A DNA stretch of 64,000 bases from contig NZ_CP019609.1 in the NCBI RefSeq assembly GCF_001998885.1, forward strand, positions 558,001-622,000, written 5' to 3'. The stretch's first letter is position 1; the number at the start of each line of letters is the position of its first letter. The DNA comes from Vagococcus penaei (lineage in GTDB: Bacteria > Bacillota > Bacilli > Lactobacillales > Vagococcaceae). The notes below the pieces were generated by a model. The model saw only the letters and a list, made by a program, of their open reading frames with translations. It was not told where the DNA came from and did no database searches. This document shows, piece by piece, positions 6,079 through 9,062 of the stretch. Made by a program: the position numbers and the translations under genes.

Positions 6079-6149
6079 TGCCCTCTACCAGGATTGAACT
6101 GGTGTTCCCGGGTTACGAATCCGATGTTCTACCACTGAACTAAAAGGGC
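6079..6149 (-). tRNA. tRNA-Thr (anticodon CGT)
   Basis: A cloverleaf can be drawn: acceptor GCCCTTT with AGAGGGC, D arm GTTC-AGTGGTA-GAAC, anticodon loop TTCGTAA with CGT at 6115-6117, T arm ACCAG-TTCAATC-CTGGT, discriminator A. No CCA is encoded. The anticodon stem has a G-U pair at its outer end and an A/C mismatch next to the loop, and the variable loop is short (4 bases). It reads ACG threonine codons. Confidence 0.85.
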
Positions 6150-6208: not shown

Positions 6209-6703
6209 TTACATTATTTCAGGTAATTTTTTATAAGCTAATTTTTTAATAATAGACTCATGTTCTGGATAATCCGTTAACAACTCACTTTGTGTAAATA
6301 ATTCAAAATCTTGAAAATCAAATCCTGGAATCACAGCACAGCTGACTAGTGCATAATCATTAACGACAGTCGAACCAAAAATTGTTCCTGCTGGTACCAC
6401 AAAATGTAAACGGTCACCTGGTTGTTTTCCTAAAGAAACAGCTGCATATTCTCCATTAGGATAAATACAATGAACGGTCAAAGTCTCACCTTCATGAAAA
6501 TACCACACTTCATCTGCAATTAAACGATGAAAATGTGAGGGGCTGTCAGGCGTTAATAAAAAATAAATACTTGTATACAATGCTCTGTTTTTTTGATTAG
6601 CTAATTGATACCGATTTTGACTTTCTTCCGTACGGCGGTAATAACCACCCTCTGGATGTGGTTCTAAGTCTAATTGTTTAATCCATTCATCTTTAGATTT
6701 CAT
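6209..6703 (-). CDS. DUF985 cupin-fold protein
   Basis: A protein of 164 aa, the usual length of the DUF985 (YML079w-like) cupin family; these are small beta-barrel proteins with no firmly assigned reaction. Typical features are LEPHPEGGYYRRT at the N-terminus, SIYFLLTPD, the cupin core HRLIADEVWYFHEGETL, and GTIFGSTVV later. The start is the second of two overlapping ATGs; the first is out of frame. The ribosome binding site AAAGGAAG overlaps the end of the displaced tmcAL tail, so the two genes form one transcription unit. Confidence 0.85.
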   Translation of the reverse strand: MKSKDEWIKQLDLEPHPEGGYYRRTEESQNRYQLANQKNRALYTSIYFLLTPDSPSHFHRLIADEVWYFHEGETLTVHCIYPNGEYAAVSLGKQPGDRLHFVVPAGTIFGSTVVNDYALVSCAVIPGFDFQDFELFTQSELLTDYPEHESIIKKLAYKKLPEIM

Positions 6704-6717
6704 TCATTAACTTCCTT

Positions 6718-6866
6718 TCATTGATAGACAACTGGTCGACGGTAATAATCTTGTGGTTGACCAGAAAGTAATTCATATATTTGACCACCTTTGATATCGA
6801 GCGATAACCAAGCTTGATTTTTTTGATTAACATTCGTAATTATTGGACAAGTCACTTGTTTTTTTG
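6718..6866 (-). other. tmcAL: Displaced C-terminal tail of TmcAL (-1 frame)
   Basis: After the tmcAL stop at 6852 the -1 frame stays open for about 46 more codons to a TGA at 6718-6720. It encodes a stretch containing TCPIITNVNQKNQAW, LDIKGGQIYELLSG and QDYYRRPVVYQ. This matches what the TmcAL family carries after its helical region (a short strand, then an (L/H)DI..A..Y element). Adding it gives about 390 aa, a normal family length. The junction is the minus-strand heptamer A-AAA-AAC at 6858-6864. Confidence 0.75.
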
Positions 6867-7886
6867 TTGTTTTAAGAAACGTTGGCCTAGTTTATCAAAA
6901 CCTAATACACGTAGATAAGGATGTTGTTTGGTTTCTTCAATTTCTTTAGTGGTAACTTGTAAGAGGATATAGACACATAATCGCTGTAACCTTGCCCATG
7001 TATAACGTTTTGATTTGACCAATTCAATTAATTCAGCAAACGTTTGAGCATGATTCACTGCTTCTTTTAATCGATATTCTAGACCTTCAGACATCTGATA
7101 CACTGTGCGTAATTGCTCAATATCAGTTACTTGGATCTGGTATTTTAAAAATGGCCATAGCTTTTGCCAAGTCACTTGGTGTTTCATTATTAAATCTTGA
7201 TAAGTAATCTCAGGAACAACTGATTCTAGCTGAGTCACTTGACCATTTGCAAATGCTTGACGAATAGCAGTTGCACTAGCAAATCCCTCAGTTCCTAGTT
7301 TAGTATCATGATATCCACCACCTTGTCGATTAATCGGTAACAATGACATAGGACTAGGTAAACTAGCATTGGCTTTTGCATAGGCCATTCCTAAAATATG
7401 ATTAGGTGACGAAAAATCAAGAGTCCATTCTGGAAATAAGTGGCGATAAATGGTTGTCATTTGTTGTGGATAACTCTGCCCATTATTTTTTAATGATTGG
7501 TACAATGCATCAATTTGCACTTGATTCTCTTGATGAGAACGACCAAATGCCTCATAATCCAACTGGTCTGATGTATCAGTACCAAAACAAAGTGTATTAA
7601 CACCAAGTAATTGGAGTAAATTGACAGCACCTTTAGCAAAATAATCAGCAGACTGAACAGCGTGTGCAAAAGGTAATTCAATAACTAAATTTACCCCATT
7701 AGCCAAAGCTTGGTTTGCGCGAGTCCACTTATCATAACAAGCAGGTTCACCACGTTGTAAAAAATTTCCACTCATCACTGCGACAATCACATCATCGCCA
7801 CTAAGCTTTTTAGCTTGTTCAACATGATACTGATGCCCATTGTGAAAAGGATTATACTCAACAATGACCCCGCAACTACTTAACAT
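6852..7886 (-). CDS. tmcAL: tRNA(Met) cytidine acetate ligase TmcAL (C-terminus out of frame)
   Basis: TmcAL uses acetate and ATP to acetylate C34 of elongator tRNA-Met in Bacillus-type bacteria, keeping AUG decoding accurate. The nucleotidyltransferase-like N-terminus is clear: GVIVEYNPFHNGHQYH at residues 6-21 with the HxGH-type motif, then VMSGNFLQRGEPA and KWTRANQAL. This frame gives 344 aa, short for the family. The missing C-terminal 46 residues follow in the -1 frame after a run of seven A, two codons before the stop. It is either a one-base deletion, an assembly error or -1 frameshifting. The start has AAGGAGG upstream. Confidence 0.88.
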   Translation of the reverse strand: MLSSCGVIVEYNPFHNGHQYHVEQAKKLSGDDVIVAVMSGNFLQRGEPACYDKWTRANQALANGVNLVIELPFAHAVQSADYFAKGAVNLLQLLGVNTLCFGTDTSDQLDYEAFGRSHQENQVQIDALYQSLKNNGQSYPQQMTTIYRHLFPEWTLDFSSPNHILGMAYAKANASLPSPMSLLPINRQGGGYHDTKLGTEGFASATAIRQAFANGQVTQLESVVPEITYQDLIMKHQVTWQKLWPFLKYQIQVTDIEQLRTVYQMSEGLEYRLKEAVNHAQTFAELIELVKSKRYTWARLQRLCVYILLQVTTKEIEETKQHPYLRVLGFDKLGQRFLKQQKNK

Positions 7887-7969: not shown

Positions 7970-8704
7970 TTACTTATAGCACACAAAAAACCAGCGAGTC
8001 GATTGATCAGTTGGTGCATCATTTGTAAAATCAGCACATACGTCAACTGCTGAAAAACCAGCCTCTTGTAGTAAACCAATGTAGGTATCAATCTCATATG
8101 TTCGCTCTTCATGTAATTCATCAAAACGAGAAAATTTCCCATCTTCTTCTTGGATAAAGAACGTTAAAAAATGCTCTACACTAAATGGATGCTCACCTGG
8201 ATATGATTCCCATAAAAAGGCGAATTCTTCCGTTTGATAGTGATAACTATATTCTTTAAATAATTCTTCTACTTGATAGATAGAATGAACGTCAAAAATA
8301 AATTTCCCTTGATCTTTTAGGCCTTGATGAACGCCTTGAAAGACTTTTAGAACCGCGTCTTCATTAGGCATGTAACACAGTGAATCTGAATAACAGGTGA
8401 CTAAGTCATACGTATCCTGTTCCTCTAAAGCCAACATATCGCCCTCACTAAATTGTGCAGTTGACTGACAGGCAATACCACGTTTTTTAGCTAACTCAAT
8501 CATCTCTTTTGATAAATCAACGCCAGTAACTTGGTAACCTGTATCCGCCAATTTAGTCGATAGAATACCTGAGCCACAAGCTAACTCTAAAATAGACTCA
8601 CACTTTTTTGGTACATGAGCTAACGTAAATTCTAGCCATTTGTCATATAGCGTGTCATCCATGACTTCATCGTAGATTCTAGTAAATGTTTCATAACTTG
8701 CCAT
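7970..8704 (-). CDS. yqeM: YqeM-like class I SAM-dependent methyltransferase
   Basis: A methyltransferase of the Rossmann class; substrate unknown. About 244 aa when started at the ATG at 8704 (MASYETFTRIYDEVMDD), which suits the family better than an upstream in-frame ATG at 8734 that would overlap rsfS. The SAM-binding motif I is ILELACGSGILS (near residue 40), followed by GVDLSKEM (motif II) and FIFDVHS later. It begins 4 bases after rsfS and is conserved in this order in Bacilli. Confidence 0.88.
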   Translation of the reverse strand: MASYETFTRIYDEVMDDTLYDKWLEFTLAHVPKKCESILELACGSGILSTKLADTGYQVTGVDLSKEMIELAKKRGIACQSTAQFSEGDMLALEEQDTYDLVTCYSDSLCYMPNEDAVLKVFQGVHQGLKDQGKFIFDVHSIYQVEELFKEYSYHYQTEEFAFLWESYPGEHPFSVEHFLTFFIQEEDGKFSRFDELHEERTYEIDTYIGLLQEAGFSAVDVCADFTNDAPTDQSTRWFFVCYK

Positions 8705-8708
8705 AATA

Positions 8709-9062
8709 TTATTCAACCATTGCTGAAATATCAACTAATGGTGCATCACGCCATAATTTTTCTAAATTATAGAATGAACGTTCTTCCCCATAAAAGACAT
8801 GGACAATGACATCATTTAAATCAATTAATACCCATTTTGCTGAGTCTTTTCCTTCAATTCGGCTAATCTTGTAACCAGCTTTTTCTGCCTTTTCTTCAAT
8901 TTCATTGGCAATTGCCAAGACTTGACGGTCATTGTTTCCATGACAAATAACAAAATAATCTGCCAATAATGAGACTTTAGATACATCCATTGCTATAATT
9001 TCTTCTGCACGTTTATCATCAGCTGCTTTCACAACTAATTCAACTAATTTTTTACTATCGAT
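8709..9062 (-). CDS. rsfS: Ribosomal silencing factor RsfS (probable ATC start)
   Basis: RsfS binds uL14 on the 50S subunit and blocks subunit joining during starvation. Conserved core: KAADDKRAEEIIAMDVS, DYFVICHGNNDRQV, KDSAKWVLIDLNDVIVHVF. The first standard start is a GTG at 9032, but it has no ribosome binding site and would remove the conserved strand LVELVV. The frame is open back to GGAGG at 9071-9075, and the only codons correctly spaced from it are ATC triplets (9060-9068). Starting at the ATC at 9062 gives 117 aa, the normal length. An ATC (or ATT-type) start is inferred. Confidence 0.85.
   Translation of the reverse strand: MDSKKLVELVVKAADDKRAEEIIAMDVSKVSLLADYFVICHGNNDRQVLAIANEIEEKAEKAGYKISRIEGKDSAKWVLIDLNDVIVHVFYGEERSFYNLEKLWRDAPLVDISAMVE

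Follow-up and report, generated by a model that had tools for sequence, protein, structure and literature searches.

TmcAL (COG1323) is the tRNA-Met ac4C34 synthetase of the Firmicutes, and in Bacillus subtilis it forms ac4C34 of elongator tRNA-Met from acetate and ATP (PMC7408541); its solved structures are those of Bacillus and Thermotoga proteins. A tmcAL reading frame that ends at an A run can be compared with several described systems. In dnaX-type programmed -1 frameshifting, an A run acts as a tandem-slippage heptamer with a zero-frame stop nearby; in E. coli, A-AAA-AAG shifts far more readily than A-AAA-AAC (PMC5009743). In mismatch-repair-deficient mutS lines, as described for P. aeruginosa, V. 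fischeri and V. cholerae, single-base gains and losses accumulate at homopolymers: indel rates rise 102- to 142-fold, mostly as single bases in homopolymers and with no strong bias towards losses (PMC5854121), and in mutation-accumulation lines 108 of 108 indels were located in homopolymers, gains being commoner than losses (PMC4702332). Loss of MutS is thus marked by transitions and by single-base homopolymer indels, with gains about equal to or above losses (PMC5854121, PMC4702332). Long-read assembly errors likewise break many conserved genes by single-base homopolymer changes, and comprise homopolymer deletions and insertions that are not tied to homopolymers (PMC12007338).

The tmcAL locus

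The genome of this Vagococcus-like bacterium (Enterococcaceae) consists of a single contig of 2.37 Mb, of which a stretch of 64,000 nucleotides (the window) contains tmcAL. The zero-frame tmcAL ORF (positions 6852 to 7886, minus strand) encodes 344 aa and is clearly TmcAL according to profile NF010191 (438.5 bits versus a cutoff of 360); the match covers positions 3-343 of 392 and ends about 49 profile positions early, so that the zero-frame product lacks the C-terminal ~46 residues and does not reach a full-length match, the remainder being encoded in the -1 frame. In the tmcAL frame, the minus strand from 6866 to 6852 is CAA-AAA-AAC-AAG-TGA, in agreement with the initial annotation. By sequence reading, the frame is lost at a run of exactly seven A's (6865-6859, minus strand), and the heptamer A-AAA-AAC (6864-6858), whose first A is at codon position 3, has the phase that permits tandem -1 slippage; the zero-frame stop TGA (6854-6852) comes two codons later. 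The -1 frame (6858 to 6718, minus strand) continues for 46 codons plus a stop at 6720-6718, its translation being QVTCPIITNVNQKNQAWLSLDIKGGQIYELLSGQPQDYYRRPVVYQ, and the ribosome binding site of the next gene lies just past this stop. The assembled tmcAL would need one more A for the run to be in frame, and both main explanations considered below share this core.

The neighbouring genes are on the same strand. Upstream lies a SAM methyltransferase gene (7970 to 8734), and downstream a gene of 164 aa (6209 to 6703), which has no NCBIfam match and which we take to be a DUF985/cupin_5 protein. This small gene is followed by a tRNA gene (window positions 6079-6149, minus strand), the only element found by an Rfam scan near tmcAL.

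The -1 frame peptide aligns with the C-terminus of TmcAL from all congeners at a mean identity of 49%, compared with 51% between the congeners themselves. It is therefore the real homologous C-terminus, as the initial annotation had proposed from its position and appearance, and a frame change that leaves it as similar to the congeners as they are to one another must be recent, maintained or not real. Decay of the -1 frame, as a sign of an old pseudogene, was looked for in this alignment and none was found. The missing end, which all 28 other family genomes have, includes the conserved LDIRA...Y block, whose tyrosine is nearly invariant; judged from the loss of this block, the short TmcAL is probably inactive or impaired.

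The search covered 28 other genomes of the family, all representing other species, and tmcAL is uninterrupted in all 28, including 13 of the 13 congeners, for which the gene was examined at the DNA level. The region of the run is in frame in every one of them, and the overlapping -1 arrangement was found in none. Outside the family, the tmcAL frame is also lost in the draft genome of Bacillus coahuilensis, after 33 codons.

A genome-wide census of frameshifts

Conserved proteins that change frame were sought by tblastn in about 1.14 Mb of the genome (about half, sampled in stretches) and in 1.5 Mb of three congeners, with a reciprocal test; the DNA covered by orthologues amounted to 471 kb and 545 kb, respectively. 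One stretch of the contig (G000:C1:848001-856000) consists of N. Twelve frameshifts were found in the 471 kb, all of them at homopolymers of 7 or more and none elsewhere. Counted per coding A/T run of at least 7 bases, a frameshift was present at 12 of 451 runs in this genome and at 1 of 536 in the congeners (Fisher p=0.0009), the denominator being slightly unequal because one of the twelve frameshifts is at a G run. The affected genes (named by their NCBIfam match where listed, otherwise by sequence reading) are tmcAL, comEB, exoA, potA, a ribosomal protein S1 homologue, an adcA-like gene, and genes for an rlmI-like methyltransferase, a histidine kinase, an HDIG-domain protein, a LacI-type regulator, a polysaccharide deacetylase and a membrane protein. 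A thirteenth candidate was discarded, since we read it as an ORF artefact in which the end of menB adjoins menE.

Alignment scores indicated six one-base losses, five one-base gains and one probable two-base gain (n=12), with the run lengths before the change deduced from protein alignment to other species. Frameshifts were present at 4 of 104 runs in genes with at least 75% identity and at 8 of 326 runs below this value. Runs of 9 or more bases are scarce: this genome has 30 in 1.13 Mb, while one congener (G011) has 65 per Mb and the two others have 49-52 (p=3e-5). Internal nonsense sites, counted in order to distinguish decay from homopolymer errors, are few: about two were found in non-transposase genes, and similarly few in the congeners. 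By our own estimate, this number fits the ratio of substitutions to indels in mismatch-repair mutants (ratios from PMC5854121).

mutS and mutL

In the mutS gene of this genome (contig G000:C1, near position 1456406, outside the window), the profile match stops at position 776 of 840 and the reading frame at 794 aa. Comparison with congener DNA revealed the lesion to be a 4-bp tandem duplication of AAGT; the rest of mutS, including a QLNLF sliding-clamp motif, continues in another frame up to mutL, which is intact over its profile. The QLNLF motif resembles the QLSFF sliding-clamp motif of B. subtilis, and in Caulobacter the clamp motif by itself is not needed for MutS activity (PMC8034640). 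We infer from the lost C-terminus that the truncated MutS is inactive. A single mutS frame reaches the end of the profile in 12 of the 13 congeners; the remaining congener (G006:C1:794201-796764) has the gene split elsewhere, apparently at a short G run, and this strain may be a second mutator or carry an assembly error of its own.

Origin of the tmcAL frameshift

At face value the locus invites a reading by programmed -1 ribosomal frameshifting, in which two TmcAL forms are made by design: the heptamer satisfies X-XXY-YYZ in the zero-frame phase (A-AAA-AAC at 6864-6858), the stop is two codons on and a homologous C-terminus lies in the -1 frame. We consider this extremely unlikely. The site is not conserved, since the gene is one uninterrupted frame in all other genomes of the family, and the heptamer is A-AAA-AAC, a weak shift site in E. 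coli (PMC5009743), and not the A-AAA-AAG of dnaX. No stimulator was found: the downstream RNA, which the initial annotation had singled out for a possible stimulatory structure, folds no better than shuffled sequences (z of -1.1 for 79 nt and +0.26 for 142 nt), and a Shine-Dalgarno-like element upstream of the heptamer is not evident by eye. Moreover, truncation here cuts off a conserved end, while dnaX-type frameshifting produces a conserved short form.

The heptamer itself has to be weighed against its genome-wide background. In about 1.0 Mb of ORFs of this genome, in-phase A-AAA-AAC occurs 52 times, A-AAA-AAG 74 times and A-AAA-AAA 357 times, and the broken adcA-like gene (G000:C1:318976-319542) shows the same in-phase A-AAA-AAC, its ORF ending within 19 bases. 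Any one-base loss places the remainder of a gene in the -1 frame, and the phase has a chance of one in three, which makes the tmcAL heptamer less special. A textbook slippery site can thus be the by-product of a one-base slip in a run, and the initial suggestion of two protein forms finds no support in a signature that recurs at another broken gene. Its other suggestion, the loss of an A during evolution or assembly, is supported, and tmcAL is one of about a dozen genes with a homopolymer frameshift in the half of the genome that was sampled. A related reading, in which transcriptional or low-level ribosomal slippage on the A run of a truly mutated gene restores useful amounts of full-length TmcAL, is very doubtful. 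The run and heptamer could permit a degree of slippage, the -1 frame is unbroken and shows no decay, and rescue of disrupted genes with slippage-prone runs is on record; selection against slippage-prone A/T runs, however, is evident mostly at nine bases (PMC1088944), while the tmcAL run has seven, and an undecayed sequence would equally be left by a recent mutation or by an assembly error.

Two explanations account for the loss of the A itself, and we lean towards real replication slippage in a lineage deficient in mismatch repair. The AAGT duplication, by ending MutS at 794 aa and removing the C-terminus with its sliding-clamp-binding motif, would leave mismatch repair deficient; unrepaired slips would then pile up in the homopolymers (about 6 bases or longer) of many genes, tmcAL among them, which would have lost one A from a coding A run. 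The excess of homopolymer single-base indels over the congeners, made up of both gains and losses, is what such a mutator is expected to leave, and this explanation covers both the balanced directions and the mutS lesion. The likeness to described lines extends to the manner in which mutS was broken, namely by a small frameshifting indel (an 11-bp deletion in the P. aeruginosa founder; PMC4702332). The present indels differ in being deduced from one genome compared with other species, not measured, and in occurring mainly in the A/T runs of an AT-rich genome; their existence in the living strain is what we infer from the pattern. Several observations argue against a mutator. Frameshifts are no rarer in highly conserved genes, contrary to purifying selection; the number extrapolated to the whole genome (~50) would need thousands of mutator generations; the scarcity of runs of at least 9 also fits undercalling; and the dispensability of the clamp motif alone in Caulobacter (PMC8034640) weakens the reading of the truncated MutS as inactive.

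The competing explanation, that a long-read assembly miscounted homopolymers, that tmcAL is intact in the organism and that the broken mutS is an unrelated real mutation, is quite possible, although we hold it to be the less probable. It is favoured by the confinement of all 12 frameshifts to homopolymers in the surveyed genes, by the single-contig genome, by long runs scarcer than in the congeners, by the involvement of conserved genes, including the ribosomal protein S1 homologue, as often as others, and by a tmcAL that is intact in all 28 other family genomes and whose C-terminus here is undecayed. Against it, gains are as common as losses (n=12), whereas long reads are expected to give mainly losses (PMC12007338), and the mutS tandem duplication is left as a coincidence; a 4-bp duplication is a lesion of another kind, not made by homopolymer miscalling.

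The finding at tmcAL is for the most part ordinary; its interest lies in the apparent natural mutator. Real indels would make the strain a natural mismatch-repair mutator in which tRNA modification, DNA repair and transport have already been lost in part; false ones would mean that roughly 2% of its conserved genes are misread as broken. Since the run still has seven A's and repair would be absent, reversion or low-level leakage of the tmcAL change could occur. It is highly improbable that homopolymers such as the tmcAL A run serve as reversible on/off switches in a long-standing natural mutator, by which wobble acetylation of tRNA-Met, and decoding fidelity with it, would vary between cells, with slippage in the off state giving low amounts of full-length enzyme; no evidence for a selected use of tmcAL reversion or leakage was found.

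Insertion sequences

Copies of IS elements in this genome were compared with one another to distinguish sequencing error from mutation. They agree at 79 of 80 runs of at least 7 bases, and the 8 copies of one element differ by three substitutions, all three of them transitions (n=3); such differences are too few to favour either. The genome also displays a recent IS expansion: a 1.35-kb element is present genome-wide in 13 full-length, nearly identical copies, and a 1.54-kb element in at least 10 within the sampled half.
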